NCBI RefSeq assembly: GCF_014267175.1
Contig: NZ_JACMTR010000002.1
Coordinates: 1,562,001 to 1,626,000 of the forward strand
From: Pseudonocardia sp. C8
GTDB taxonomy: Bacteria > Actinomycetota > Actinomycetes > Mycobacteriales > Pseudonocardiaceae
DNA: 64,000 nucleotides
Reading direction: 5' to 3'
Part shown: in pieces, positions 10,743 through 63,482 of the stretch
How the letters are laid out: each line of letters opens with the position of its first letter
How positions within the stretch are numbered: position 1 is the stretch's first letter
Translations under genes and position numbers: made by a program
Notes under the pieces: generated by a model
Told to the model about the DNA's origin: nothing
The model's input: only the letters and a program-made list of their open reading frames with translations
The model's database searches: none

Positions 10743-10757
10743 TCCGGAGGAACCTCC

Positions 10758-12833
10758 ATGGGCACACGCATCACCGTCGACACCGGTGGCACCTTCACCG
10801 ACGTCGTCGTCGCGGACGGCTCGGGCTCACTGTCCCTCGGCAAGGCACTCACCGATCAGCAGCGCATCTCCACCAGCATCCGCGAGGGCCTCGCGGCCGC
10901 CTGCGAGCCGCTGGGGCGCTCCGCGGACGACGTGCTCCGGGAGGCGGACGTCTTCGTCTATGCCACCACCCGCGCGACCAACGCCATTCTGGAGGGGACG
11001 ACGGCACGCACCGCGCTGCTGACGACGGCGGGCTTTCCCGACGTCCTCGTCCTGCGCGAGGGCGGACGCAGCGACGCGTTCGACTTCACCGTGCCGTTCC
11101 CCGAGCCGTACATCCCGCGGCGGCTGACCTTCGAGATCACCGAGCGGATCGGCGCCGAAGGCGGGGTGGTCCGCGAGCTCGACGAGGCAGCGGCGGTCGA
11201 GACCATCCGCGGCCTCGCCGAGCGGGGCGTGGAGGCCGTCGCGGTCTGCCTGCTGTGGTCCATCGCGAACCCGGCCCACGAGGTGCGGCTCGGGGAGCTC
11301 CTCGCCGAGCACCTGCCGGGCGTGCCGGTGACGCTCTCGCACAGGCTCAACCCGATCCTGCGGGAGTACCGCCGCGCCTCGGCGACCGCGATCGACGCCT
11401 CGCTCAAGCCACTCATGCAGGCCCACCTCGCCGGCCTCGAGCAGGACCTGCGCGCGCACGGATTCGGCGGTGAGCTGATGGCCGCGACATCCTTCGGCGG
11501 TGTGATGCACGTCGGTGACCTGGCCGAGCGGCCCATCTACAGTGCCCGCTCGGGGCCGTCGATGGCGCCGGTTGCCGGCCGCGCCTACGCGGGCGAGCAG
11601 GCGGCTCGTCACGATGTCATCGTCTGCGACACCGGTGGGACGTCGTTCGACGTGAGCCTCGTGCACAACGGCGAGATCGTCTTCACCAGGGAGACCTGGC
11701 TCGGCGGCACCTACTCCGGCCACCTCACCGGGCTCGCATCGGTCGACGCGCGCAGCATCGGGGCGGGCGGCGGATCGATCGCCTGGGTCGACCCGGGAGG
11801 GCTGCTGCGCGTCGGTCCGCGCAGCGCCGGCTCCGAACCCGGTCCCGCCGCCTACGGCCGTGGCGGAACCCTGCCGACGGTCACCGACGCGGCGACGGTG
11901 CTCGGCTACCTCAACCCGGACACGTTCCACGCAGGCCGGATGCGACTCGACGCCGACGCGGCCCGCGCCGCCGTCGGCAAGCTGGGCGCCGAGCTCGGCC
12001 TCGACACCGAAGCATGCGCGGCGGCGATCTTCGCCATCGCGAACGAGCACATGGTCCGGGCCATCCAGGAGCTGACGGTCAACGAGGGCGTCGATCCCCG
12101 CGACGGGCTCGTCGTCGCCGGGGGTGGCGCGGGTGGCCTCAACACCGTGGCCATCATGCGCGAGCTCGGTTGCCGCCGGGTTCTCGTGCCGCGCACCGCG
12201 GGCGGGCTGAGCGCGTGCGGCGCGCAGTTCTCCGACATCATCCAGGAGTACTCGGCCACCCGGCCGACGTCATCGGCCGCGTTCGACTTCGACGGCGTCG
12301 AGGCGGTACTGGCGGGGCTGCGCCGTCGGGCACAGGACGCGGTCGTCGGACTGCAGGCGCGTGGTTACACCAAGTCCCGGATGCAGCTGGCGGTCGAGGC
12401 GCGCTACCAGCAGCAGAACTGGGAGATCGAGGTTGTCCTGCCGTCGACCGGGATCGCCTCGGCCTCGGACGTGGACGCGCTCGTCACGGCCTTCCACGAC
12501 GAGCACGAGCGCCTCTTCATGGTCCGCGACCCCGACTCGCCCGTCGAATGCCTCGTCTGGCGGCTGCGGCTGGTGATGGAAACCGGCGCCCCGGCTCCCG
12601 CCGCCACGCCCGTCGAAGGTCCGGTCGAGGCCGCCGTTCACGCGCGCAGGCCCGCGGTGTTCGACGGGAGCGTGCACGACACCGCCGTCGTGGCCGGGAC
12701 CGACCTGCGCCCCGGCAACACCCTCGCCGGCCCGGCCGTCATCGAGGAACCCACGACCACGATCGTCCTGCCGCCCGGCGCGACGGCCGTGGTCACCGCC
12801 ACCGGCGACTACCTGATCGAGGTCGGATCATGA
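10758..12833 (+). CDS. hyuA: Hydantoinase/oxoprolinase family protein, subunit A
   Basis: The 691-residue protein has the ASKHA-type phosphate-binding repeats of HyuA enzymes: DTGGTFTDVVV at residues 8-18 and DTGGTSFDVSL near residue 297. It also has the conserved stretches YATTRATNAILEG, LSHRLNPILREYRRASATAI and the GAGGGSIAWVD loop. This family uses ATP to open or carboxylate lactam, hydantoin or ketone substrates together with a B subunit (N-methylhydantoinase, acetone or acetophenone carboxylase, 5-oxoprolinase). Start ATG at 10758 with GGAGGAA. Its stop overlaps the start of the B-subunit gene by ATGA. Neighbouring ligase and TetR suggest a degradation path; exact substrate unknown. Confidence 0.93.
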   Translation: MGTRITVDTGGTFTDVVVADGSGSLSLGKALTDQQRISTSIREGLAAACEPLGRSADDVLREADVFVYATTRATNAILEGTTARTALLTTAGFPDVLVLREGGRSDAFDFTVPFPEPYIPRRLTFEITERIGAEGGVVRELDEAAAVETIRGLAERGVEAVAVCLLWSIANPAHEVRLGELLAEHLPGVPVTLSHRLNPILREYRRASATAIDASLKPLMQAHLAGLEQDLRAHGFGGELMAATSFGGVMHVGDLAERPIYSARSGPSMAPVAGRAYAGEQAARHDVIVCDTGGTSFDVSLVHNGEIVFTRETWLGGTYSGHLTGLASVDARSIGAGGGSIAWVDPGGLLRVGPRSAGSEPGPAAYGRGGTLPTVTDAATVLGYLNPDTFHAGRMRLDADAARAAVGKLGAELGLDTEACAAAIFAIANEHMVRAIQELTVNEGVDPRDGLVVAGGGAGGLNTVAIMRELGCRRVLVPRTAGGLSACGAQFSDIIQEYSATRPTSSAAFDFDGVEAVLAGLRRRAQDAVVGLQARGYTKSRMQLAVEARYQQQNWEIEVVLPSTGIASASDVDALVTAFHDEHERLFMVRDPDSPVECLVWRLRLVMETGAPAPAATPVEGPVEAAVHARRPAVFDGSVHDTAVVAGTDLRPGNTLAGPAVIEEPTTTIVLPPGATAVVTATGDYLIEVGS

Positions 12834-49451: not shown

Positions 49452-51077
49452 TCAGGAGGACACCGACCGGGATCCTGGTGCTCCCTGCCGGAGCAGGAAG
49501 CGCTGGATCTTGCCGCTCGGGGTCTTCGGCAGCGCGTCGGTGAAGTGGACGGTGCGCGGGTAGGCGTGCTTGGCGTAGTTGTCCTTGACCAGCTGCTGGA
49601 GCTCGCGTTCGAGCTCCAGCGTGCCCTCGGCGCCCGGGGTGAGCACGACGTGGGCTTCGAGCACCTCGCCGCGCAGCGGGTCGGGCCGGCCGACGGCGGC
49701 CGCCTCGGCCACGGCGGGGTGGCTGAGCAGCACGGTCTCCACCTCGAACGGGCCGATCCGGTAGCCGGCCATGAGGATCACGTCGTCGTCCCGCGCGGAG
49801 AAGTGGAAGAAGCCGTCCTCGTCCTGGGTCGCGGTGTCCCCGGTCAGGTACCAGCGGCCGTCGTCGCTGAAGCGGGACGACCCGGTGGCCCGCGCGTAGC
49901 CGCGGAAGCTGGCCAGCGGGCTGTTCGGGACGTCCACGGCCACCTGCCCGACCGTTCCGGCCGGTGCGGGTGTGGTGCTGTCGTCGGCGAGGATCGCGAC
50001 GCTCCAGCCGGGGAACGGCCGGCCCATCGACCCCGGGCGGACCGGTTCACGGATCTCGCCGGCCCAGCCGTTCCCGATCATCATGCCCTGCTCGGTCTGG
50101 CCGTAGTGGTCCCGGACGGTCACCCCGAGCGCCGACTCGGCCCAGGCCGGGACGTCCGGGGTGAGCGGCTCGCCCGCCGATGACAGGCACCGCAGCTCCA
50201 GGCCGGGCGGCACCGGCTGCCCGCGCAGGCTGCGGTAGACCGTCGGCGCGGCAGCGAAGTTGGTGACCCGGAACCGGTCGAGCACCCGCCAGGTGGTCGC
50301 CGGGGCGAAGGGGGCGTGCAGCAGCAGGCTGCGCCGGCCCGCTGCCAGCGGGCCGAGCACGGCGTAGTAGAGGCCGTAGGCCCATCCCGGGTCGGCGGCG
50401 TTCCAGTAGACGTCGTCCGCGCGCAGGTCGAGGCCGAGCTCCAGGTAGCCCAGGATCCCGGCGAGCGCGTGCACCGGGACCTGCACGGCCTTGGGGGCGC
50501 CGGTGGTGCCGGAGGTGAATAGCTCGATCAGCACGCCGTCCGGACCGAGGGCGGCCGGCTCGACCTCGTCGCCGCCGTGCCGGGCCAGGAGCTCGTGGAA
50601 GTCGTCGTGGCCGCCTGCCGGCCCGCCGACGACGACCAGGCGCGGCCCCTGCCCCGGATCCCCGACGAGCTGGTCGAGCTTGGCGCGCTGGTCGGCGTCG
50701 GTGACGACGACCTTCGCACCACTGGCACCGACCCGCAGCTCGATGGCCGGCGGTGCGAACGCGGTGAACAGCGGGACGTGGATCGCGCCGCGCCGCCAGA
50801 TGCCCAGCAGGGCCACGACGAGCTCGGCGGACTTGCCCATCAGCACCGCGACGGCGTCGCCCGGACCCACGCCCAGCCCGGCCAGCGCGGCCGCGAACTT
50901 CGTCGACTCCGTGCGGAGCTCGCCGTAGGTGAGGTCACGGGAGCCGAGGTCCGGTTCGATCACCGTGAACGCCACCGCGTCGGCGGGGTGGCTGTCGCAG
51001 AGCAGGTCGGCCGCGGAGGAGCCGGGCCGGGAGAAGTGCCGGACCAGCTCGTCGACGCGGGTACGCGGGTCGGACAT
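49452..51077 (-). CDS. AMP-forming acyl-CoA synthetase (acetyl-CoA-synthetase-like)
   Basis: 541 residues from ATG 51077. Shows TSGTTGAPKAVQVP at about residue 182, the WNAADPGWAYGLYYAVLGPL stretch of acetyl/acyl-CoA synthetases, GYRIGPFEVET, and the catalytic Lys in LPKTPSGKIQRFLLR. Activates a carboxylic acid to acyl-CoA. It lies 296 bases downstream of the reductase gene on the same strand and may be part of the reductase/di-iron set or independent. Substrate unknown. Confidence 0.92.
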   Translation of the reverse strand: MSDPRTRVDELVRHFSRPGSSAADLLCDSHPADAVAFTVIEPDLGSRDLTYGELRTESTKFAAALAGLGVGPGDAVAVLMGKSAELVVALLGIWRRGAIHVPLFTAFAPPAIELRVGASGAKVVVTDADQRAKLDQLVGDPGQGPRLVVVGGPAGGHDDFHELLARHGGDEVEPAALGPDGVLIELFTSGTTGAPKAVQVPVHALAGILGYLELGLDLRADDVYWNAADPGWAYGLYYAVLGPLAAGRRSLLLHAPFAPATTWRVLDRFRVTNFAAAPTVYRSLRGQPVPPGLELRCLSSAGEPLTPDVPAWAESALGVTVRDHYGQTEQGMMIGNGWAGEIREPVRPGSMGRPFPGWSVAILADDSTTPAPAGTVGQVAVDVPNSPLASFRGYARATGSSRFSDDGRWYLTGDTATQDEDGFFHFSARDDDVILMAGYRIGPFEVETVLLSHPAVAEAAAVGRPDPLRGEVLEAHVVLTPGAEGTLELERELQQLVKDNYAKHAYPRTVHFTDALPKTPSGKIQRFLLRQGAPGSRSVSS

Positions 51078-51373
51078 CGGTGATCGGCCTCCGGGTGCGG
51101 CGGGTGTCGGGCGCGCGGAGCGGCCGTCGGCATCACCTCGATGCTGATCCGCGTCGCGTCCGGAGGCGAGTCTTGGCCATGGAGGCCGTCCAGGACAACC
51201 GTGCGGGCCGTCGATCCGACGCAGCTCTGATATCGCTGTCAGGTTTTGGCGGCGACCGACTGAGAGAACGGATTGCACGATGATGGCTCCGAGTTCGCCC
51301 ACTCCTGCTCGAGCTCACCGGCGACAGTTCCCGAGGAACGGCAGCGACGTCGGCACCGTGCCGCCGAGGTCCG
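51078..51373. other. Gap between ligase and reductase genes
   Basis: About 296 bases, no gene recognised. Both flanking genes read leftward, so it may hold a separate ligase promoter. No strong hairpin seen. Confidence 0.35.
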
Positions 51374-52321
51374 TCACAGGTCCAGAACGAGGATGCCGCC
51401 GCGGGCCCGGGAGACGCACGGCAGCATCACATCGCCGCGGTCGCGCTCGTCGTCGGACAGGACGTCGTCCTGATGGTCCAGCTCGCCCGAGCACACCCGC
51501 ACCTGGCAGGTGCCGCAGATCCCGGCTCGGCAGGAGTTCTCCACGGCGATGCCCGCGCTCTCGATGACGTCCAGCAGCGGCACGTGCTCGGGCACCGTCA
51601 GGCGCACCCCGCTGCGCCGGAGGACGACGTCGAACGCGCCGCCCCCGCCGGTGACGGGCGGAGCGCTGAACCGCTCGCGATGCAGGGTCCCGGCCGGCCA
51701 GTGCGCGGACGCCCGTTCAACCGCGGAGATCAGCGCCTCCGGGCCGCAGCAGTAGACGACCGAGTGCTCGCCCGGCGCGCCTCCGAGGGGCGTCACGAGA
51801 TCGAGCAACCCGGACTCGTCCTGGGGGACGATCTGGAGCTCGCCACCCGGGACCGCGCGGAGCTCGTCGACGAATGCCATGGAGTTCCGGGACCGACCGC
51901 CGTACAACGCCGTCCACGGCCGGTTCAGCGCCGCGACCCGGCGGAGCATCGGCAGGATCGGCGTGATGCCGATCCCGCCGGCGACGAAGACGTAGCGATC
52001 GGCGTCGACGAGCGGGAAATGGTTGCGCGGGCCGCGTACCGGGAGCCTGTCCCCGGCGCGAACGAGGTCGTGGACCCGTTGCGAGCCGCCGCGGCCCGCG
52101 GCCTCGCGCAGCACGGCGATCCGCCACCGGCCGGAGTCGTCAGGGTCCCCGCAGAGGGAGTACTGCCGGACGAACCCGGCGCCGAGATCGACGTCGATGT
52201 GCGCGCCGGGGGCCCAGGACGGCAGCGTCATCCCGCCCGCCGCGGCGAGCGTGATCGCCACGACGTCCGTGGCGCAGGGCTGGACGGACTCGACGGCGAC
52301 CGTGGTCCAGGTACCGGTCAT
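51374..52321 (-). CDS. Ferredoxin-reductase-type oxidoreductase with 2Fe-2S domain (phthalate dioxygenase reductase/VanB family)
   Basis: 315 residues: flavin-binding FVRQYSLCGDPDDSGRW, the NAD-binding VFVAGGIGITPILPML near residue 115, and a C-terminal plant-type 2Fe-2S cluster with CRAGICGTCQVRVC and a later Cys in MLPCVSRA. It transfers electrons from NAD(P)H through flavin to the Fe-S center and then to an oxygenase. The adjacent upstream gene (32 bases away, same strand) encodes a ferritin-like di-iron protein, the obvious electron acceptor. ATG at 52321. Confidence 0.93.
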   Translation of the reverse strand: MTGTWTTVAVESVQPCATDVVAITLAAAGGMTLPSWAPGAHIDVDLGAGFVRQYSLCGDPDDSGRWRIAVLREAAGRGGSQRVHDLVRAGDRLPVRGPRNHFPLVDADRYVFVAGGIGITPILPMLRRVAALNRPWTALYGGRSRNSMAFVDELRAVPGGELQIVPQDESGLLDLVTPLGGAPGEHSVVYCCGPEALISAVERASAHWPAGTLHRERFSAPPVTGGGGAFDVVLRRSGVRLTVPEHVPLLDVIESAGIAVENSCRAGICGTCQVRVCSGELDHQDDVLSDDERDRGDVMLPCVSRARGGILVLDL

Positions 52322-52353
52322 CGTGCCTTCCGGGGTGTGTCGGGCCGGAGCAC

Positions 52354-53043
52354 TCAGGCCCCGGCGGCGCCGACCGACTCTGGGGTGAAGGTCTTCCACG
52401 CGATGTCGCGCATGCCCCGCATCGCGCGGAGGACCTCGTCGCGGTCGTGGTCGTCCGCGACGTAGGTCGAGAGCATCTGGAGTCCGAGCCCGACGTGGAA
52501 CTTCTCGTCGGTCTCGATCCGCTTGTAGATCCGCACGACCTCGTCGAGGCCGTGTCGCTCCGCGCCGCGGAAGGTCGGCTCGAAGCTGCCGGACGCCGAG
52601 GTCTCGGAGAGGTTCCACGCCGCGATCGCGGCGAGGGGATGGCGGTCCAGGCACTGCCAGAGGAATGCGCTCCACGGCTCGGCCTCGGCCGGGACGGACG
52701 TGGGCACGGTGCCACCGAGGGACTCGATGGCCTTTCCGACCATGTCGTAGTGCTCGGCCTCCTGGAAGGACTGCTTCGCGAGCAGCGTGATGTGCCGGCG
52801 CTGGAAGCGCATGCCATAGCGGGCGATCTCCTCGTTCAGCAGGTACACGTAGTCGATCTCTCGCCAGCAGCGCGGAGCGAGCCATGCCGCGAGCCGTGCC
52901 GGGTCCGGGGCCTCGTCGTAGGAGGCGAAGAACGCCTCGGTCGCCGTCGCGGTCGCCTCAACGACCGAGTCGAGCAGCTCATCGATCTCCGCGCGGATCG
53001 GTTCCAGGCCGTCACCGCCACGCACGTTCCGCACATCGACCAT
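52354..53043 (-). CDS. Ferritin-like di-iron protein, putative oxygenase
   Basis: 229 residues, all-helical, with carboxylate/histidine ligands in ferritin-like pattern: YLLNEEIARYG for the first glutamate, ExxH in FQEAEHYDMVG, and a second ExxH in ETDEKFHVGLGL. The two helix pairs are typical of di-iron oxidases such as the hydroxylase or N-oxygenase families; the exact family is not recognised. ATG at 53043 has CGGAGGACGAC upstream. It probably uses electrons from the downstream 2Fe-2S reductase to oxidise a small molecule. A perfect palindrome lies 26 bases upstream. Confidence 0.7.
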   Translation of the reverse strand: MVDVRNVRGGDGLEPIRAEIDELLDSVVEATATATEAFFASYDEAPDPARLAAWLAPRCWREIDYVYLLNEEIARYGMRFQRRHITLLAKQSFQEAEHYDMVGKAIESLGGTVPTSVPAEAEPWSAFLWQCLDRHPLAAIAAWNLSETSASGSFEPTFRGAERHGLDEVVRIYKRIETDEKFHVGLGLQMLSTYVADDHDRDEVLRAMRGMRDIAWKTFTPESVGAAGA

Positions 53044-53068
53044 GTCGTCCTCCGGTTCGTTGGATCCG

Positions 53069-53084
53069 TGTATCCATGGATACA
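53069..53084. promoter_or_regulatory. Perfect 16-bp palindrome, GntR/FCD operator candidate
   Basis: TGTATCCATGGATACA is a perfect palindrome of the TGTAT-N6-ATACA type bound by FadR-subfamily regulators. It lies in the divergent gap between the di-iron gene (26 bases) and the GntR gene at 53246 (about 160 bases). It would repress both. Confidence 0.75.
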
Positions 53085-53245
53085 ATCTGGCGGCGTGCTG
53101 GCTGTCAAGACCGGGCTGATACGAAGGAGCGCGATGACTCGGCCCTGCCACGTCGACGGGCGCGCCCGGGATACGGGTGTGGCGGGGCACGGGATCGCCG
53201 CTCGTCCGGCACGGGCTGCCTACGATGACGGGATGTGAGAGCCAG

Positions 53246-53974
53246 ATGAGCGACGGCATCGTGCACCCGGGGGCCGGGCTCCAAGCCCCGAGCAGCTACG
53301 CGGACCAGATCGCCCGGATCCTCGAGGGTGAGATCCTGGGTGGCCGCTACGCGCGCGGGGAACACCTCCAGCAGGACGAGGTCTGCCGACGGTTCGGTGT
53401 CAGCCGCACGCCGGCCCGCGAGGCGCTGCGCAAGCTGCAGGCCCTCAACCTGGTCGAGCTCATCCCGAACCGAGGAGCCCGGGTCCGGGTGCCGACCCTT
53501 CGCGAGCTCGAGGAGGTCTACCAGGTCCGCGCCGAGCTCGAGGGGTTCGCCGCCGAGCTCGCGGCCGGGGCGACCGACCCCGCGATCACGCGTCGGTTGC
53601 GGGAGGCGCAGCAGGCGCTGGCCGACCTCCTGCCCGCGGCCGTCGCCGCCCTGGACGGCACGGACGAGGATGCCGGTGAGCGGTTGCGCCATTTCAACGA
53701 CAGCTTCCACGGTGTCATCCACGACGCCGGCGGGAACCGGCGGCTCGGGCAGATGATCCAGGAACTGCACCGGTACTTCCCGAAGGACACGGTGCGGCTG
53801 GCCGTCCGGACTCCGGAGGCCCTCCGGGCTCTCTACCTGGACGACCACGACGTCGTCCTGGACCGGATCGCGAACGGGCTCGGTGCGCAGGCCCGGGTGG
53901 CGATGCGTGACCACATCCTGCGGTCCCAGTCGCTGTTGATCGACTACCTGCGTGCGCACGGGCTCGGGGCCTGA
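53246..53974 (+). CDS. GntR-family regulator, FCD subfamily
   Basis: 242 residues with a winged helix (about 20-85: RILEGEILGGRYARGEHLQQ, RRFGVSRTPAREALRKLQAL) and an FCD domain with metal ligands likely in HFNDSFHGVIHDAG. ATG at 53246 chosen; a longer frame is unsupported. Divergent from the di-iron/reductase genes with the 16-bp palindrome between, so probably autoregulates and represses them, released by the substrate. A LysR gene follows 34 bases after in the same direction. Confidence 0.92.
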   Translation: MSDGIVHPGAGLQAPSSYADQIARILEGEILGGRYARGEHLQQDEVCRRFGVSRTPAREALRKLQALNLVELIPNRGARVRVPTLRELEEVYQVRAELEGFAAELAAGATDPAITRRLREAQQALADLLPAAVAALDGTDEDAGERLRHFNDSFHGVIHDAGGNRRLGQMIQELHRYFPKDTVRLAVRTPEALRALYLDDHDVVLDRIANGLGAQARVAMRDHILRSQSLLIDYLRAHGLGA

Positions 53975-54008
53975 CGTTCGCGATGGACGCCGAGCACCGG
54001 GGAATGTC

Positions 54009-54971
54009 GTGACCAGGCAGCCGGACGTGACCCTCACGCAGCTCCGGTACTTCGTGGAGGCGGCCTCGGTGCTGAGCATGACCAAGGCAGCCGAGGAGCT
54101 GCGGGTGGCCCAGTCGGCGGTGTCCGCGGCGGTGGCCCAGCTGGAGCGCCAGGTGGGGACACCGTTGTTCATCCGCCAGCATGCCCGCGGCCTGGTGCTG
54201 ACCGCAGCAGGGGAGGAGCTGCTGCGCGACGTGCGCGGGTTGCTCGCGCACGTCGGCGAGGTGCTGGACGCGGCGCGTGGCCGCGGGGACGATGTTCGCG
54301 GCCGGATCAAGGTGGCCTGCATGGTCACCCTCGTCCCCTTCGTGCTGCCCGATCTGCTCGCGGAACTGAGCGGTCGCTGCCCCGGGCTGGAAGTTGAGGT
54401 GCTCGAGCTCGAGGCGGCCGCGGTGAGCGCCGCACTGCGCAGCGGCGCGGTCGAGGTCGCCATCACCTACGACCTCGGACTCGGGCCGGGAGTCCGACGG
54501 GAGGTCATCGCCGAGGCCCCGCCGTACGTGGTCCTGCCGCCCGGGCACCCGCTCACGGACCGGCCGGAGGTGCGGTTGAGCGACCTGGCCGACGAACCGA
54601 TGGTGCTGCTGGACCTCCCGCACAGCCGCGAGTACTTCCGCGAGCTGCTGGGGACGGCCGGAGCCCAGCCGCGGATTGCCTACCGGTCGGCCAGCGTCGA
54701 GGCGGTACGCGGAATGGTCGCGCGGGGGCTCGGGTTCTCTCTGCTCAACCAGCAGCCGGTGCTGGACGGGACCTACAGCGGTGGGCGCGTCGAGGCGCGG
54801 CCGATCGCCGATGACGGCGTCCCGGCGCTGTCGGTCGTCGTGGCGTGGATGGAGTCGGTGCGGCGCACCGCGCGCGCACGCGCCGTCACCGACACCGCCC
54901 GCGAGGTCGTGCGGCGGCTCCGCTCGGCCACCGGGCGCCCGGGCCCCAGCCGGGGCGGCTCGCAGTCCTGA
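54009..54971 (+). CDS. LysR-family regulator
   Basis: 320 residues with HTH (TLTQLRYFVEAASVLSMTKA, ELRVAQSAVSAAVAQLERQV) and a PBP-type ligand domain. GTG at 54009. Follows the GntR gene closely and precedes the MHS transporter by 185 bases; two TGCATC-N9-GATGCA boxes (54993 and 56574) match the ATC-N9-GAT LysR motif and mark its probable targets, the transporter and the monooxygenase operon. Confidence 0.92.
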   Translation: MTRQPDVTLTQLRYFVEAASVLSMTKAAEELRVAQSAVSAAVAQLERQVGTPLFIRQHARGLVLTAAGEELLRDVRGLLAHVGEVLDAARGRGDDVRGRIKVACMVTLVPFVLPDLLAELSGRCPGLEVEVLELEAAAVSAALRSGAVEVAITYDLGLGPGVRREVIAEAPPYVVLPPGHPLTDRPEVRLSDLADEPMVLLDLPHSREYFRELLGTAGAQPRIAYRSASVEAVRGMVARGLGFSLLNQQPVLDGTYSGGRVEARPIADDGVPALSVVVAWMESVRRTARARAVTDTAREVVRRLRSATGRPGPSRGGSQS

Positions 54972-55156: not shown

Positions 55157-56563
55157 GTGTCCGAGCCCACCCCACCTCCCACCACTGACGCCGCGCTCGA
55201 TGCGGCCGTCCAGGTCGATCCCGCCTCGCTGCGCCGGAGCGTGGCCGCCGGCGCGATCGGCGTCTTCGTCCATTGGTTCGACTGGGCCGTCTACGCGTAC
55301 CTCGCCACGACCATCGCGACGGTGTTCTTCCCGTCGGAGAGCGAGGTCGCCGGCGTGCTGTCCGTGTTCGCCGTGTTCGCCGTGTCGTTCGGAATCCGCC
55401 CGCTCGGCGCGCTGGTGCTAGGCCCGCTCGGCGACCGGATCGGCCGGCGGCGCACGCTCTCGATCGTCATCATCGTCATGTCGGTCGCGACGCTCGCGAT
55501 CGGACTGCTGCCCGGGTACGCGACGATCGGGATCGCGGCGCCGATTCTGCTGGTGGCCCTCCGTCTGGTGCAGGGTTTCGCCGCCGGCGGTGAGTTCGGC
55601 AGTGCCGCCAGCTTCCTGGCCGAGTACTCGCCCCGCACCCGGCGCGCGTTCGGGGTGAGCTGGCTCGAGGTCGGATCGCTGCTTGGGTTCCTCGCCGGAT
55701 CGTTCGCGTTCTACCTGCTCTCGGTCTCGTTGACCGACGATCAGATCACCTCGTGGGGGTGGCGGCTCCCGTTCCTGATAGCGGCACCCATGGGCGTGAT
55801 CGGCTACATCATCCGGACGAAGATCGAGGACACCCCGGAGTATCGGACGCTCGAGGCGACCGGCTCGGTGCCGCGCAGCCCGGTCAGGGAACTCTTCCGC
55901 ACGAACGTGCGGCAGATGCTGCAGGCCGCCGGCCTCATGACGATGATGCACGTGCTGTTCTACGCGGTGCTCACCTACCTGGTGACCTACCAGACCGACC
56001 ACCTGGGGCACTCGGCCGAGAGCGCCGCCCTGCTCTCCACGTTCGCCTCGATGCTCGGGTTGATCCTGGTGCCCGCGTTCGGGCTGCTGTCCGACCGGGT
56101 TGGGCGCAAGCCCGTCATGGTCGGAGCCGCCGGCGCGCTGCTGGTCGCGGCGACGCCCGCCTACCTGCTGATGCAGGCGGGAATGATCGGCACTGTCGTC
56201 GCGGCGCTCGGCTTGGCCGTGATCCTCTCGGCGATCCTCGCGACCCACGCCGTCTGGTCCGCCGAGATCTTCCCGACCCGGACTCGCCAGGGCGGTCTGT
56301 CGATCGCCTACAACGTCACCGCCGCGCTGTTCGCCGGCACCGTCCCGTTCTTCATGACCGTTCTCATCTCCGCCACCGGAAGCCTGATCGTCCCCGGTCC
56401 TTACCTGATGGTCGCCGCGGCGCTCGGGCTGGCCGCCGCACTGAGCATGCGGGAGACGGCGGGCAGCAGCCTGCTCCGTGCGCAGGACCTGGGCGCCGCC
56501 GCTCCCGGGGAGGCATCGACGGTGCCGCCGACCCGGGCGTCCGCCGACGGCGTGACGTCCTGA
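55157..56563 (+). CDS. MFS transporter, MHS type
   Basis: 468 residues, 12 helices, MHS marks VFVHWFDWAVYAYLATTIAT, FGIRPLGALVLGPLGDRIGR and FAAGGEFGSAASFLAEYSP. Likely proton-coupled import of an organic acid or related solute. GTG at 55157, behind GGAGGACCC. Site A upstream and site B downstream tie it to the LysR regulator and the monooxygenase operon. Confidence 0.92.
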   Translation: MSEPTPPPTTDAALDAAVQVDPASLRRSVAAGAIGVFVHWFDWAVYAYLATTIATVFFPSESEVAGVLSVFAVFAVSFGIRPLGALVLGPLGDRIGRRRTLSIVIIVMSVATLAIGLLPGYATIGIAAPILLVALRLVQGFAAGGEFGSAASFLAEYSPRTRRAFGVSWLEVGSLLGFLAGSFAFYLLSVSLTDDQITSWGWRLPFLIAAPMGVIGYIIRTKIEDTPEYRTLEATGSVPRSPVRELFRTNVRQMLQAAGLMTMMHVLFYAVLTYLVTYQTDHLGHSAESAALLSTFASMLGLILVPAFGLLSDRVGRKPVMVGAAGALLVAATPAYLLMQAGMIGTVVAALGLAVILSAILATHAVWSAEIFPTRTRQGGLSIAYNVTAALFAGTVPFFMTVLISATGSLIVPGPYLMVAAALGLAAALSMRETAGSSLLRAQDLGAAAPGEASTVPPTRASADGVTS

Positions 56564-56594: not shown

Positions 56595-56777
56595 AAGGTT
56601 CGAAAACATCCACTGGTCTGTTCTATCGAGACCCCCCAGACTCGGTGCATCGGCGTCCCGTCCGGGCACTCCGCCCCTCCGCCGGTGCCACCCGTCGACC
56701 TGGACGTCATCGCGGCGGGAGGCATGGCGACGTCCTGCGGGAGCGAGCGCGTCGTGATCACTGGAACGGAGGTTGAG

Positions 56778-58118
56778 ATGGCGCACCATGAGACCGAGGT
56801 CCTCGTCGTGGGCGGAGGTCAGGCCGGCGTGGCCATGAGCGAGCATCTGGGTGCACGCGGGATCGGACACCTGGTGCTCGAACGCGATCGGATCGCCGAG
56901 CGCTGGCGGACGGGCCGCTGGGACTCACTCGTGGCGAACGGTCCGGCGTGGCACGACCGCTTTCCGGGGCTCGAGTTCAGCGGCGTCGATCCCGACGGGT
57001 TCGCCTCGAAAGACCAGGTCGCGGACTACTTCGCCGCCTACGCTGAGAAGATCGCCGCACCGGTCCGCTGCGGTGTGGAGGTCCGGCGGGTGCGGAAGCA
57101 CGTCGGGCGCCCCGGTTTCCGGGTCGAGACCTCGGAGGGGACGGTCGACGCGCGCCATGTCGTGGCCGCGACCGGACCGTTCCAGAAGCCGGCAGTCCCC
57201 CCGGTTGTTCCGCGGGACGCGGGTCTGCTGCAGGTCCACTCGAGTTCCTACCGCAACCCGGAGCAGCTACCCGCGGGCGCCGTGCTCGTCGTCGGGGCGG
57301 GATCGTCGGGCGTCCAGATCGCGGACGAGCTGCGGCGCTCCGGCCGGACCGTCTACCTCTCGGTCGGTCCGCACGACCGGCCCCCGCGCCGATACCGGGG
57401 ACGGGACTTCTGCTGGTGGCTCGGGGTCCTCAACAAGTGGGACGCGGTGGCGCCCCCCAGGGGGGCGGAACACGTCACCATCGCGGTTAGCGGAGCCGAC
57501 GGAGGGCGGACCGTCGACTTCCGGGCGCTCGCGGCCGGTGGGATCACCCTGGTGGGCATGACCCGTGCGTTCGCCGACGGCCGGATGCGGTTCGCGGCGG
57601 ACCTGCGCGACAACATCGCCGGCGGGGACGCCGGCTACTTGGCGATGCTCGACGAGGCCGACGCGTATGTCGCGCGCAACGGGCTCGACCTGCCGGAGGA
57701 ACCGGAGGCCCGCGCGTTCGGGCCGGAGCCGGACTGCGTGCTCGACCCGCTTACCGAACTCGACGTGGCGACCGCCGGAGTCACCTCGATCGTCTGGGCG
57801 ACGGGGTTCGTCTCCGACTACGGCTGGCTGGAGGTCGACGCATTCGACGAGGCCGGCCGGCCGCAGCACGCCCGCGGCGTGTCCACCGAGCCAGGCGTCT
57901 ACTTCCTCGGCCTGCCCTGGCAGTCGCGACGCGGATCGAGCTTCATCTGGGGGGTCTGGCACGACGCCGCGTACGTGGCCGACCACATCATGATCCAGCG
58001 CAGCTACCTCGCGTACCCCGGTGTCGCCGACCCGCTCCGCCCGCGTCGGCCGAGCACCGGCGCCGCCCGGCCTGACCATGACACCGCGTGCACCGTCACG
58101 ACCACTGGAGCAGCCTGA
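56778..58118 (+). CDS. Flavin-dependent monooxygenase (FMO/YUCCA-like)
   Basis: 446 residues with FAD motif GGGQAG at residues 12-17, the NADPH motif GAGSSGVQIADELRRSG near residue 172, the FATG-like VWATGF near the end, and the RRYRGRDFCWWLG linker. Oxidises a nitrogen, sulfur or carbonyl substrate with NADPH and oxygen. ATG at 56778 after CGGAGGTTGAG. Stop overlaps the RidA start by one base, so operon. Confidence 0.9.
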   Translation: MAHHETEVLVVGGGQAGVAMSEHLGARGIGHLVLERDRIAERWRTGRWDSLVANGPAWHDRFPGLEFSGVDPDGFASKDQVADYFAAYAEKIAAPVRCGVEVRRVRKHVGRPGFRVETSEGTVDARHVVAATGPFQKPAVPPVVPRDAGLLQVHSSSYRNPEQLPAGAVLVVGAGSSGVQIADELRRSGRTVYLSVGPHDRPPRRYRGRDFCWWLGVLNKWDAVAPPRGAEHVTIAVSGADGGRTVDFRALAAGGITLVGMTRAFADGRMRFAADLRDNIAGGDAGYLAMLDEADAYVARNGLDLPEEPEARAFGPEPDCVLDPLTELDVATAGVTSIVWATGFVSDYGWLEVDAFDEAGRPQHARGVSTEPGVYFLGLPWQSRRGSSFIWGVWHDAAYVADHIMIQRSYLAYPGVADPLRPRRPSTGAARPDHDTACTVTTTGAA

Positions 58119-58540
58119 TGCCGACCCACACCCGGATCCGTCCGTTCAACACCCGCGACACCTATCCTGAGCAGAACCTCGACAACGACCTGTGCCAGGC
58201 CGTCGTCGCCGGCAACACGGTCTATGTCCGCGGCCAGATCGGCCAGGACCTCGACACCAGCGAGTCGGTCGGGATCGGCGACGTCGGAACCCAGGCCGAG
58301 CAGGCGATGGCGAACATCGACATGCTGCTCCGCGAGGCGGGCAGCCGGATGGAACACCTGGTCAAGCTGACCATCTACCTGGTCGACCCGCGCTACCGGG
58401 AGACCGTCTACCAGACCGTGGGGCGCTGGACCAAGGGGGTCCACCCGATCTCCACCGGTGTCGTGGTGTCCGCGCTAGCCCGTCCGGAGTGGCTCTGCGA
58501 GATCGATGCGATCGCCGTCATCCCGGAGGCCGACCGATGA
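58118..58540 (+). CDS. RidA/YjgF family protein
   Basis: 140 residues with the RidA pattern: VAGNTVYVRGQIGQDLDT, TQAEQAMANIDMLLREAGSR, LVKLTIYLVDPRYRETVY and a late conserved Arg/Glu (ARPEWLCEIDAIAV). RidA hydrolyses reactive enamines/imines. Next to a monooxygenase and an M20 hydrolase it may clear an imine made by the oxygenase. Overlaps both neighbours. Confidence 0.92.
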   Translation: MPTHTRIRPFNTRDTYPEQNLDNDLCQAVVAGNTVYVRGQIGQDLDTSESVGIGDVGTQAEQAMANIDMLLREAGSRMEHLVKLTIYLVDPRYRETVYQTVGRWTKGVHPISTGVVVSALARPEWLCEIDAIAVIPEADR

Positions 58541-59202
58541 CCTTCTCCATCGTTGCCCGGCACGAGGGGCGGTTCGGTATGGCCGTCAGCTCCTCCAGTC
58601 CCGCGGTCGCCGCTCGCTGCGTGCACCTGCGGCCCGGCGTCGGGGCCGCCGCGTCGCAGAACGTCACCGACCCCCGGCTGGGCGGGCGGACCCTCGACCG
58701 GCTGGCCGTGCACGGCGACGCCGGACGGGCGTTGAAGGAGGTCGGGGCGAACGCCACCGACCTGGAGTACCGCCAGCTGACAGCGGTCGGACCGGCGGGC
58801 CCGGCCGCCTGGTTCAGCGGGGAACACACCCTCGGTACCCACGGTGCGGCGCTCGGCCCGCACTCGGTTGCCGCCGGCAACATGCTCGTGAGCACCGACC
58901 TGCCGACGATCATGGTCGAGGCGTTCGAGTCCGCCACGGGAGAGTTCGAGGAGCGGTTGCTCGCCGCACTGAGGGCCGGGCACGAGGCGGGCGGTGAGGA
59001 GGGGCCGGTGCACTCGGCTGGCCTAGCCGTCGTCGCGGACGTGGAGTGGCGGGTGACCGACCTGCGGGTCGACTGGGCCGACGCACCGATCGACCGCCTG
59101 GCCGAGGCCGTGGAGACCTGGTTGCCACAGCGTGACGACTACGTCCGACGTGCGCTGCACCCAGCGAGCGCGCCGTCGTACGGCGTCCCGGGGGACCTGT
59201 GA
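58537..59202 (+). CDS. DUF1028 family (Ntn-fold-like) protein
   Basis: 221 residues with DUF1028 marks: TFSIVARHEGRFGMAVSSSS at the start, VGAAASQNVTDPRLG, and the GNMLVSTDL stretch. DUF1028 is suspected to be an Ntn-type hydrolase; it is often found near RidA and M20 genes. ATG at 58537 overlaps RidA's stop by 4 bases. Its role in the operon is unknown. Confidence 0.88.
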   Translation: MTFSIVARHEGRFGMAVSSSSPAVAARCVHLRPGVGAAASQNVTDPRLGGRTLDRLAVHGDAGRALKEVGANATDLEYRQLTAVGPAGPAAWFSGEHTLGTHGAALGPHSVAAGNMLVSTDLPTIMVEAFESATGEFEERLLAALRAGHEAGGEEGPVHSAGLAVVADVEWRVTDLRVDWADAPIDRLAEAVETWLPQRDDYVRRALHPASAPSYGVPGDL

Positions 59203-60338
59203 TCCGCGAGAAGGCTGCGGTCCGCACCGCCGTGGACCGGGCGGCCGACGAGCTGGTCGGATTGTCGACCGCGTTGCACGCACGGCCCGAGACCGCGTGG
59301 GAGGAGCACCACGCCGCGGAGACGGTGCCGGAGCTGCTCGACCGTCGCGGGTTCACCGTGACCCCGGCCTACCTGGGGCTGGAGACCGCGTTCCTCGCCC
59401 GGTACGGCGCGGGGCCGCTGCGGATCGCCCTGTGCGCCGAGTACGACGCGCTGCCGGGACTCGGACACGCCTGCGGACACAACCTCATCGCTGCGTCGTC
59501 GGTCGGTGCCGCCCTCGGTCTGGCCGAGGTGGCCGATGCAATCGGCCTGACCGTCGAGGTGTACGGCACCCCGGCCGAGGAAGGTGGCGGCGGCAAGATC
59601 GAGATGCTGGACCGCGGCGCGTTCCGCGACGTCGACCTCGCGATGATGGTTCACCCGGCACCGGTCGACGTCGCCGAGGCGCGGCCGTTCGCGGTCAGCC
59701 ACTCCCGGATCTCCTACGGCGGCCGGTCCGCGCACGCTGCGGCATATCCCGAGGACGGCGTGAACGCGGCTGACGCGTTCACCGTCGCCCAGGTCGCCAT
59801 CGGCCTGCTGCGCCAGCAGCTCCCGACGAGCTCGCGGGTGCACGGGATCGTCACCTCCGCAGGCTCGGCACCCAACGCAATCCCCGAGAGCTCTGTGGGG
59901 CGGTGGTACGTGCGTGCGGAGAGCCTGGCCGAGCTGGCCGCGATCGAGCCGAAAGTGCTGCGGTGCTTTGAGGCGGGCGCCCTGGCCACCGGCTGCACGT
60001 TGGAGGTGGAGGCCGAGAGCAAGCCCTACGCCGAGTTCCGCACCGACACGCGCACGTTGGAGCACTACCGGGCCAACGCCCTGGAGCTCGGCCGCGAGTT
60101 CGCGCCGGGCGGCCTGGCCGGCCGGATGAACCGAGCGTCCACCGACATGGGCAACGTGTCCCAGGTCGTCCCGGCGATCCACCCGTACATCGGGATCGGA
60201 TCGCTACCCGCGACCAACCACCAGAGGGAGTTCGCCGCGCACTGCATCGGGGCGGAGGCCGAGCGGGCGTTGCTCGACGGCGCGGTCGCGTTGGCCTGGA
60301 CGGCGGTGGACCGGGCACGCGAGGGAGGCCGGTCGTGA
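59199..60338 (+). CDS. M20-family metal-dependent amidohydrolase
   Basis: 379 residues with metal-site motifs: CAEYDALPGLGHACGHN, the Glu pair in TPAEEGGGGK, MMVHPAP with a bridging His, and a late histidine. Cleaves an amide or N-acyl bond, as in aminoacylase/aminobenzoyl-glutamate hydrolases. GTG at 59199 overlaps the DUF1028 stop by 4 bases. It probably releases an amine or acid that the other enzymes process. Last gene of the operon. Confidence 0.92.
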   Translation: MIREKAAVRTAVDRAADELVGLSTALHARPETAWEEHHAAETVPELLDRRGFTVTPAYLGLETAFLARYGAGPLRIALCAEYDALPGLGHACGHNLIAASSVGAALGLAEVADAIGLTVEVYGTPAEEGGGGKIEMLDRGAFRDVDLAMMVHPAPVDVAEARPFAVSHSRISYGGRSAHAAAYPEDGVNAADAFTVAQVAIGLLRQQLPTSSRVHGIVTSAGSAPNAIPESSVGRWYVRAESLAELAAIEPKVLRCFEAGALATGCTLEVEAESKPYAEFRTDTRTLEHYRANALELGREFAPGGLAGRMNRASTDMGNVSQVVPAIHPYIGIGSLPATNHQREFAAHCIGAEAERALLDGAVALAWTAVDRAREGGRS

Positions 60339-60371: not shown

Positions 60372-63300
60372 CTACGACGCGACGACGCTCGCCGCCCGGA
60401 ATGTTTCCCCCGGCATCGCCCGCCGCAACTTCCAGGTGATCGCGATCGGCTTGCTGCCCTCATGCGAGACGTAGTCACAGGCGCCGAGGCAGAGGAACGG
60501 CGCGCCGGGGCCGATGTCGTCGGCCGGCGAGTCACGCACGAACAGCACGACGTGGCTGCCCTGTTCTCGATGCATGAGGTACCGCCGCCCCATCCCGGTC
60601 TCCGGTGACGCGGCGTTCTGAGACTCCCAGTGGAACACGTCAGGCTGCAGGGCGAAGTCGCGATACATCGTCGTGGGTGAGAAGTCGCGCTCGGTCTTGC
60701 GCAGGTTGACCAGCAGCGCGTCGACCCGGGGACCGTCGGCCCATACGACGCCGCTGGCGTGCCCGGCGGCCTTTCGAGCCAGGGACGCCCAGTCCAGCGC
60801 CGCGAGGATCTCCTCCCGGCGGTAGTGAGCGTGGCTGCGGAGCGGTACGTGCTGCAGCCCCTCACCCAGCGATCGGGGCAGGTGCCGGGCCTGATCGAGG
60901 GTGTAGGCGGTGAGTTCGCGGATCTCCGCACACACCGCGGGGTGGCGCCGGAGGTGGTCGAATCCGGCCGCGTAGCTGCCGAACCCACCCCGGTCGGGCC
61001 AGATCTGGAAGAACAGCATCCGCGCCAGTCGCTGATCGCGCTCGGTCAAGTCGGTGTACGCCGGCCCCTCCGGGTCGGCGACGCGGGCGTACACCTCGGC
61101 GCGTTCGGGGTCGTCGACGTGGCTGAGGTTCGCCAGCCGACGCAGCAGGGCGGTCTCGTCGGGGCCGGCGGCCGGGACGGTCAGCCCGGAGTCGCGGCAG
61201 AGCGCCGTCCACGACCCCTTGCTCCGGTACACGTCGGATAGCTCCCCGCCTGACGCCCGCAGGTAGCGCGCGAGCCCGGGCTCGCCGTGCGAGCGGACAT
61301 CGGCCACGAGATCCTTCCGGGACAAACGCAGCCGGTTGCGGACGTTGTCGAGCACGATCTGCTGTGCCACCGGGTCGAGCACCATCGCCGAACCGGACGG
61401 CAGGTACGGGAAGCCGTCCTCGACGTCCCGTACGACCCCGGTCCGGCTGCTCCCGGTCAGCGCCCGGTAGCGCAGGTCGAATCGGAACTCACGGCGTTGC
61501 TGGCCGATGAAGTCGAGGACGGTCAGCACGGCCTTGTCCGGCGCCCGGCGCAGCCCGCGACCGAGTTGCTGCAGGAAGATCGTTGCGCTCTGGGTGGGGC
61601 GCAGCAGGAGCACCGTGTCGACCTCGGGGACGTCGAGGCCCTCGTTGAAGACATCGACCGCGAACAGGCAGTTCACCTCGCGATCGCGCAGCCGCCGGAG
61701 CGCGTCGTCGCGGTCGTCGCGAGCGGTCCGGCCGCTCACCGCCTCGCTCGGGATACCGGCTGCGGTGAACACCCGCGCCATGTACTCGGCGTGTGCGACC
61801 GACACGCAGAACCCGAGTGCGCGCATCGCGCTGACGTCGGTGACCTTGGCCCGGGTCTCGCGGATGATCTTTGCAGCCCGGGCGTCGTTGCCAGTGTAGA
61901 GCGTGTCGAGGGCGCTGGCGTCGTAGCTGCCACGCGTCCACTCGACGCCCCGCAGGTCGACGTCGTCGGCGAGACCGAAATAGTGGAACGGCACCAGCAG
62001 GTCGGCCGCGAGCGCGTCCCAGAGCCGCAGCTCGGCGGCGCTACGGCCGTCGAAGAAGCGATCGCGGACGTCCACGCCGTCGGAGCGCTCCGGTGTCGCG
62101 GTCAGGCCGAGCAGCTCCGCCGGCCGCAGGTGATCCAGCAGCCGGCGGTAGGTTGCGGCTTCGGCGTGGTGGAACTCGTCGATGACGACGACGTCGAAGT
62201 GGTCGGCGGGGATGTTCTCCACGCCGTAGGCGGCGAGGGACTGCACGGACGCGAACACGTGGGTCCACCGTGTGGGCCGGGCACCGCCGACGTACTTCTC
62301 CCCGAACGCACCATCGGCGAGCACCGCCCGGTACGTGCGCAGCGACTGGTCCAGGATCTCCCTGCGGTGGGCGACGAACAGCAACCTCGGATGCGCGGCG
62401 CGCAGACGCTGGTAGTCGAGGGCGGCGACGACCGTCTTCCCGGTCCCGGTCGCCGCGATCACGAGGTTGCGGTGCCGGTCGTGAACCTCCCGCTCGGTGT
62501 CGAGCGCCTCGAGGAGCTGCTCCTGGTGCGGGAACGGCCGGACCTCGAGCCCGATCAGAGGGGTGTCGGCCTGCCGGGACCTTCCGAGCGCGTCCGCGAG
62601 CCGCTGCGAGTCCGCGGGGACGGCCGGGTCGTAGGAGACGAAGTCCGGTGCGTTCCAGTAGGTGTCGAACGTGGAGGTGAACTTGCGGATCAGGTCGGGC
62701 GTCGCGACCGACGAGAGACGGACGTTCCATTCCAGGCCGTCGACCAGCGCGGAGCGGGAGAGGTTCGAGCTTCCGACGAAGGCGGTATCGAAGCCGGAGT
62801 CGCGGCGGAACAGCCACGCCTTGGCGTGCAGGCGGGTCGTCGCACTCGCATAGTTGATCTTCACCTCGGCGCCGTGGCGCTGCACCAGCTCGTCGACCGC
62901 GCGTTGATCGGTGGCGCCCATGTAGGTCGTGGTGATCACCCGGAACGGGACTCCGCGCTCCCGCAGCACGTCGAGCTCGCGCTCCAGCAGGCGGATGCCG
63001 TGCCACCGGATGAACGCGCACAGCAGATCGACGCGGTCGGCGCTGGCCAGCTCCGACCGCAGCGCGGAATGTAGCTTCGGTTCACCCGCCGCGTTCGTGA
63101 ACAGGGCCGCGTCCGACAAGGGAGTGAGCGGCCGGCGAACCTCGTGGACGCCGGGAAGGACCTCTCGGGTGAGCGCGATGAGCTGTTGCAGGTCCTCGTG
63201 AAGCTGCTCGTCGTGCTCCACGAGCCCCATCAGCTGGTTGACCAGCTCGACGCGCTGCGGGGCATCGCGCTCGGCGAGCGCGTGCTCGACGACTGCGGCC

Positions 63301-63482
63301 ACGTGCCGGGCCAGCACCCGCGGCTGGACGGCCGCGTCGATGTCGTCCCAGCGTGGAGTCAGGTCGGTGACCTCGGCGAGCGCAGCCTCGAGCCGGGTGG
63401 TGCGCAGGCGTTCGTGTGCCCCGGCGCGCAGTGGTTCGGACACGCTTCCCCGTCCGTCGTCGTTCACGATCGGGTGCAGCAT
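60372..63482 (-). CDS. DEAD/DEAH-box helicase with PLD-like nuclease and DUF3427 domain
   Basis: 1036 residues. N-terminal PLD-like region with HxK motif (TTRLHAKAWLFRRDSGFDT then VGSSNLSRSAL, about residue 217), SF2 helicase core with Walker A AATGTGKT near residue 353, DEFHH box, TATPERSDG and motif VI QQLGRGLRRAP, then a C-terminal DUF3427 region. This architecture is known from DNA-repair or phage-defence-associated proteins. ATG at 63482; a GTG at 63443 (VSEPLRAG) is an alternative. It is convergent with the M20 gene and no obvious partner is near. Confidence 0.9.
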   Translation of the reverse strand: MLHPIVNDDGRGSVSEPLRAGAHERLRTTRLEAALAEVTDLTPRWDDIDAAVQPRVLARHVAAVVEHALAERDAPQRVELVNQLMGLVEHDEQLHEDLQQLIALTREVLPGVHEVRRPLTPLSDAALFTNAAGEPKLHSALRSELASADRVDLLCAFIRWHGIRLLERELDVLRERGVPFRVITTTYMGATDQRAVDELVQRHGAEVKINYASATTRLHAKAWLFRRDSGFDTAFVGSSNLSRSALVDGLEWNVRLSSVATPDLIRKFTSTFDTYWNAPDFVSYDPAVPADSQRLADALGRSRQADTPLIGLEVRPFPHQEQLLEALDTEREVHDRHRNLVIAATGTGKTVVAALDYQRLRAAHPRLLFVAHRREILDQSLRTYRAVLADGAFGEKYVGGARPTRWTHVFASVQSLAAYGVENIPADHFDVVVIDEFHHAEAATYRRLLDHLRPAELLGLTATPERSDGVDVRDRFFDGRSAAELRLWDALAADLLVPFHYFGLADDVDLRGVEWTRGSYDASALDTLYTGNDARAAKIIRETRAKVTDVSAMRALGFCVSVAHAEYMARVFTAAGIPSEAVSGRTARDDRDDALRRLRDREVNCLFAVDVFNEGLDVPEVDTVLLLRPTQSATIFLQQLGRGLRRAPDKAVLTVLDFIGQQRREFRFDLRYRALTGSSRTGVVRDVEDGFPYLPSGSAMVLDPVAQQIVLDNVRNRLRLSRKDLVADVRSHGEPGLARYLRASGGELSDVYRSKGSWTALCRDSGLTVPAAGPDETALLRRLANLSHVDDPERAEVYARVADPEGPAYTDLTERDQRLARMLFFQIWPDRGGFGSYAAGFDHLRRHPAVCAEIRELTAYTLDQARHLPRSLGEGLQHVPLRSHAHYRREEILAALDWASLARKAAGHASGVVWADGPRVDALLVNLRKTERDFSPTTMYRDFALQPDVFHWESQNAASPETGMGRRYLMHREQGSHVVLFVRDSPADDIGPGAPFLCLGACDYVSHEGSKPIAITWKLRRAMPGETFRAASVVAS

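Follow-up and report, generated by a model that had tools for sequence, protein, structure and literature searches.

A conserved pair of a putative di-iron oxygenase component and a flavin/2Fe-2S reductase beside an operator-like palindrome in Pseudonocardia

Which partner does a reductase of the phthalate-dioxygenase-reductase (PDR)/VanB type serve if the gene next to it encodes a putative di-iron protein, and what does such a pair do? This question is raised by a locus of Pseudonocardia sp. C8, located on a 64,000-nucleotide (nt) stretch of contig NZ_JACMTR010000002.1 (positions 1,562,001 to 1,626,000), which is called the window below and is part of a 6.24-Mb genome. An original prediction had placed here genes for a di-iron-like protein, a reductase, an acyl-CoA ligase and a GntR/FCD regulator. 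Our analysis bore out these gene calls and the 32-nt gap between the first two; the di-iron-like protein has 229 amino acids (aa). We give an even chance to the reading that the 229-aa protein and the reductase form a two-component, NAD(P)H-driven, non-heme di-iron oxygenase that releases formaldehyde, belongs to an accessory catabolic cassette and is repressed by the GntR/FCD protein in actinobacteria. Such a pair may strip a carbon unit from a small nutrient molecule.

The di-iron-type protein and its reductase

We compared the locus with 25 related ones, L004 and L005 to L028, with flanks of ~8 kb per side (shorter on one side in L008, L017, L018, L021, and L025). L005 to L011 are referred to as the close actinobacterial loci; L027 and L028 are titled actinobacterial as well, and no GntR match was found there. 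The 229-aa protein contains two ExxH motifs, EAEH (residues 95-98) and E180-K-F-H183 within DEKFH, both of which are invariant in all 24 aligned sequences. Candidate ligands are E62, E95, H98, E147, E180 (or D179), and H183. Such ligand-type residues are likewise invariant (24/24), and their order E, ExxH, E, ExxH is, as judged from sequence only, that of ferritin-like di-iron enzymes, so that the di-iron pocket on which the original prediction depended has its putative residues in place. Besides the two histidines of the ExxH motifs, those at positions 84 and 135 are invariant. Five distant relatives from the same class (L030 to L034) retain E62, ExxH, and DExxH, and their E147 is shifted by one position.

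The predicted structure of the protein (predicted local distance difference test, pLDDT, 93.3) has heme-oxygenase-like proteins as its nearest solved folds. Compared to CADD, ferritin-like di-iron enzymes (aldehyde-deformylating oxygenase (ADO), MiaE, ribonucleotide reductase R2, rubrerythrin) showed lower Z scores and fewer aligned residues, ADO-type structures reaching up to 16.8 and MiaE 15.6. Most of the ADO matches started at residue 40-43 and omitted the helix 14-44, while two started at 1 and 21. Hence, the prediction of a ferritin-like protein holds only in part: the two ExxH motifs stand, but a plain ferritin-like fold is not supported. The sequence missed the gathering cut-off of PF14518 (Haem_oxygenas_2; 16.6 versus 28.9 bits), and across the family 12 of 24 members matched at E ≤ 1, the best with E 0.0032. 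Matches of the alignment profile to GntR FCD domains (E 0.03) were judged to be chance helical similarity. In a literature search, we recognized no paper as describing this family.

The reductase shows the motifs RQYSL (flavin) and GGIGITP (nucleotide) and a C-terminal plant-type 2Fe-2S pattern, Cx4Cx2Cx29C; its FAD_binding_6 domain stayed under the cut-off. PDR/VanB-type reductases are marked by RxYS for flavin, GGxGxTP for the nucleotide, and a C-terminal Cx4Cx2C..C for the 2Fe-2S cluster, and these three patterns were present in all 23 scanned sequences, the window included. In 22 of the 25 related loci (L004 to L025, each more than 60% identical), the reductase gene adjoins the di-iron gene in the same orientation, which is the conserved linkage that the original prediction depended on. 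Across 20 loci and the window, the pairwise distances of one protein correlate with those of the other (r = 0.86). A ferredoxin-like frame is located directly upstream of the distant relatives in L030 to L034 (5/5 by motif; the one scanned is Pfam Fer4 above cut-off). Since close relatives adjoin a reductase and the distant ones a ferredoxin-like frame, a neighbouring electron carrier looks like a trait of the family. The prediction of a two-component di-iron oxygenase from an unrecognized family under GntR control is therefore well supported by the linkage and by the invariant ligand-type residues, and judging by the linkage the reductase may hand electrons to the putative di-iron oxygenase component. 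One Pseudaminobacter arsenicus contig (L014 and L024) carries two oxygenase-reductase pairs with differing neighbours.

Other partners for the reductase were considered as well. A Rieske protein with a family match, of the VanA type, occurs only in L005, and a search with this protein found no further one in the 25 loci and the 44-64 kb part of the window. The di-iron protein is therefore the constant neighbour of the reductase. When open frames of at least 200 codons were scanned for motifs, Rieske-like frames turned up in L016 (one) and L017 (two), and L007 yielded a frame with a P450 motif (10604-12352). None of these candidates, including the one in L005, recurs, and a Rieske or P450 partner was rejected. 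The stretch L005:11322-16633, near a mycothiol enzyme, combines the VanA-type Rieske gene with another reductase of this type (39% identical) and with two frames that by eye resemble a GST and an NCS2 permease.

The original prediction had also counted the acyl-CoA ligase, which follows the reductase gene after 293 nt, as part of the unit. None of the 25 related loci has a counterpart beside the pair, with downstream flanks of less than 2 kb in L004, L008, L027, and L028; the sole match is in L009, a 29%-identical ligase 2.3 kb past the reductase. The ligase is therefore not supported as part of the unit.

Formaldehyde genes and the proposed reaction

The original prediction had left the chemistry of the pair as unknown. 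Neighbours in other genomes, though not the window itself, allow it to be narrowed to a probable release of formaldehyde. A formaldehyde gene was called where a tblastn match spanned more than half of the query, followed by family scans (tblastn alone for Gfa in L015 and the hydrolase in L023), and such genes were counted in 14 alphaproteobacterial loci (L012 to L025) and 8 actinobacterial ones (L005 to L011 and the window's 44-64 kb). L004 (1.9 kb of sequence) and L026 to L028 (no reductase) stand outside these counts; tblastn gave no formaldehyde gene there. S-(hydroxymethyl)glutathione dehydrogenase was found above its curated cut-off in 7 of the 14 alphaproteobacterial loci (L013, L015, L017, L018, L022, L023, L025), Gfa in three (L013, L015, L018), and S-formylglutathione hydrolase in two (L022, L023). 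S-(hydroxymethyl)mycothiol dehydrogenase exceeded its cut-off in 3 of the 8 actinobacterial loci (L005, L008, L009). The chance expectation per locus is ~0.5% for the glutathione type (9 copies in 7 genomes) and ~0.4% for the mycothiol type (11 copies in 6 genomes). After like-arranged hit loci had been merged, 4/11 remained on the glutathione side (P = 2e-7) and 2/7 on the mycothiol side (P = 4e-4); we chose the mergings ourselves, and independence of the loci is assumed in the P values, both of which count against these figures. The genomes G537 and G538 each encode two such dehydrogenases, of which the neighbour is one, as would be expected if it were a dedicated copy. We think that the reaction releases formaldehyde mainly because two different thiol systems agree.

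We propose that electrons from NAD(P)H would pass through the flavin and the 2Fe-2S cluster of the reductase and reach the iron site in its 229-aa partner. This partner would activate O2 and hydroxylate a methyl (or hydroxymethyl-like) carbon beside N or O in a small imported polar acid. The hydroxylated product would then break down to formaldehyde, to be cleared via the mycothiol or glutathione route of the host. The two-component Rieske demethylases VanAB and GbcAB, which give formaldehyde as a by-product, use the same kind of VanB/PDR reductase, but the oxygenase here is a di-iron-type helical protein and not a Rieske protein. Tentatively, the pair could even represent a new di-iron class that bridges the heme-oxygenase-like fold and a ferritin-like four-carboxylate/two-histidine (4C/2H) site and, with its own flavin/2Fe-2S reductase, takes the role of a Rieske demethylase on N- or O-methylated small acids, which is possible, though we would sooner doubt it. 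If true, the family would be a test case for a heme-oxygenase-like scaffold holding a ferritin-type site. According to PMC13108848, a review of heme-oxygenase-like di-iron enzymes, those with the nearest fold have been described chiefly in biosynthesis and for the most part lack a dedicated redox partner. A two-component member that works in catabolism and gives an identifiable by-product would be a further way of demethylation next to the Rieske and P450 systems.

Several observations weigh against a formaldehyde-releasing di-iron pair. Its metal site is read from the letters of the 229-aa protein and not from a geometry. No reductase gene accompanies the di-iron gene in L026 to L028 (~50% identity; L028 ends 0.2 kb downstream), and the P450-motif frame of L007 lies within ~1 kb beyond the reductase. 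The neighbours vary between clades and therefore imply no single substrate. Two mycothiol-type enzymes are encoded elsewhere in the window's genome. If L005 is dropped, the mycothiol signal falls to 1/6 (P = 0.026), and dropping L022 and L023 leaves 3/10 on the alphaproteobacterial side (P = 2e-5). Other points would suit a two-component di-iron oxygenase without a formaldehyde product, next to formaldehyde genes that act in other reactions or in housekeeping: 12 of the 22 loci, including the window (44-64 kb), have no such gene in the stretch searched; the mycothiol enzyme of L005 lies near the VanA-type Rieske protein and the second reductase and may serve those, the Rieske protein being a conceivable formaldehyde source; and the dehydrogenase of L022/L023 may be a chance housekeeping neighbour, because it is the only copy in the genome of L022 (G541, the one tested) and is surrounded by unrelated-looking genes. 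We nevertheless doubt this explanation, since six arrangements (by our count) and two thiol systems stand well above background even without L005 or L022/L023.

Formaldehyde could also leave through C-C bond cleavage by a heme-oxygenase-like di-iron oxygenase (HDO) equipped with a dedicated reductase, comparable to BesC on 4-chloro-lysine, and PMC13108848 does describe formaldehyde release by BesC. This is unlikely in our view. The motif of the 229-aa protein appears to be 4C/2H, in contrast to the 3H/3C or 3H/4C motifs of the HDOs CADD, UndA, HrmI, and BesC, a class marked by a heme-oxygenase-like fold of seven helices; in a motif comparison the place of the third histidine before DExxH is taken by the invariant Ile176, and the sequence stays under the PF14518 cut-off. 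Moreover, the HDOs studied so far are described in this review as needing no protein effector, although for one step MboA needs MboB as its redox partner, whereas the 229-aa protein has a flavin/2Fe-2S reductase as its neighbour. Very improbable, finally, is a rubrerythrin- or R2-like redox protein for peroxide detoxification or stress sensing that the reductase keeps reduced. In its favour are local similarities around DExxH to ribonucleotide reductase R2 and nigerythrin, all of them under cut-off or not significant; against it, the gene is rare and patchy and lies near importers, catabolic enzymes, and regulators of the GntR or LysR type, a setting that suits catabolism more than a general role in stress.

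The palindrome and the regulators

A flawless 16-bp palindrome had been predicted for the divergent gap, and TGTATCCATGGATACA is indeed exact. Its perfection means little, because the window (71.5% GC) contains seven perfect palindromes of this length against an expected 3.8. It is, however, the sole one of the seven with at least half A+T, and the sole site at up to one mismatch in the genome, with one more at two mismatches. The palindrome precedes the oxygenase gene by 43-48 nt in all seven close actinobacterial loci and by 41 nt in the window; it is identical in four of them, with one change in L005 and L007 and three in L011. Thus, its conservation, not its perfection, makes it remarkable. 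The spacing between TTGACA and TTGTAT is 17 nt in the window and in 6/7 close actinobacterial loci, and 18 nt in L005 (by eye); this site was not among the calls of a sigma-70 promoter scan.

The GntR/FCD gene adjoins the oxygenase gene in L005 to L011 (7/7). The GntR/FCD protein and the palindrome are a candidate repressor-operator pair: in actinobacteria, the divergently encoded protein would bind the palindrome over the promoter and repress the operon until an acid effector is present, which offers a route to the substrate via induction. No half-sites were found upstream of the gene in 13 alphaproteobacterial loci (L021 left out), and one half-site lies 7.5 kb off in L022. A LysR gene of one cluster is located within the flanks of 13 of the 14 alphaproteobacterial loci; the two members scanned are nearest to GcvA, under its cut-off.

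Neighbouring genes, substrate and distribution

The features of the locus are collected in Table 1. The genes from the LysR-type regulator to the M20 protein are common to the window, L006 and L007 (Pseudonocardia records), and L010 (Prauserella), and the LysR-type regulator and the importer are perhaps in the same pathway as the pair. We did not recognize the pathway of the flavoprotein-RidA-DUF1028-M20 set (56685-60338).

Table 1 Features of the locus (positions in the window)
Feature	Position	Strand	Basis
Acyl-CoA ligase	49452-51080	(-)	
PDR/VanB-type reductase	51374..52321	(-)	Fer2 (PF00111), NAD_binding_1 (PF00175) above cut-off; motifs
Putative di-iron-type oxygenase component, 229 aa	52354..53043	(-)	Residue invariance, model, fold comparison
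Operator-like 16-bp palindrome TGTATCCATGGATACA	53069..53084		Genome uniqueness, recurrence in related loci
TTGACA, -35-like hexamer	53103..53108	(-)	17 nt before palindrome-overlapping TTGTAT
GntR/FCD regulator, divergent from oxygenase	53246..53974	(+)	GntR, FCD above cut-off
LysR-type regulator (longest frame, with the true start probably internal to it)	53952..54971	(+)	
MFS importer, metabolite/H+ symporter type	55157..56563	(+)	Family scans
Flavin-dependent oxidoreductase, nearest MSMEG_0569 family	56685..58118	(+)	374.9 bits, under 498.35-bit cut-off
RidA-type protein (longest frame)	58088..58540	(+)	PF01042
DUF1028 protein, start = ATG before domain	58537..59202	(+)	PF06267
M20-family amidohydrolase	59199..60338	(+)	PF01546

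A proline-racemase-family gene and an LldD-like gene are common to half of the alphaproteobacterial loci (7/14). An aldehyde dehydrogenase, amine oxidase, or class-III aminotransferase occurs in L011, L012, L016, and L028, and an OCD-family protein in L017. The substrate that fits best is a small polar acid containing nitrogen. Hydroxyproline-like compounds, suggested by the racemase-family and OCD-family neighbours, are only a lead; homarine, proline-betaine, and DUF1028/RidA substrate leads were not confirmed. The proline-racemase-family proteins of L013, L014, L015, L018, L019, L020, and L021 all have MCGHGT but DRSPGGTGT (7/7). In the latter motif, glycine occupies the place of the second catalytic residue, for which Cys or Thr is the usual choice, and their activity may therefore be unusual.

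The di-iron gene was found in 4 of 149 relatives (the host itself included), within the class in the host and five distant ones among 394, and in the families of two alphaproteobacterial hosts at 5/346 and 1/345, those hosts included. No plasmid-borne copy matched among 72,556 records. This rare and patchy spread would fit a horizontally moving catabolic cassette. Further along the window, a PLD/helicase/DUF3427 protein of 1036 aa (60372-63482, minus strand) matches the PADLOC model of a type IV methyl-directed restriction enzyme with 1129 bits.

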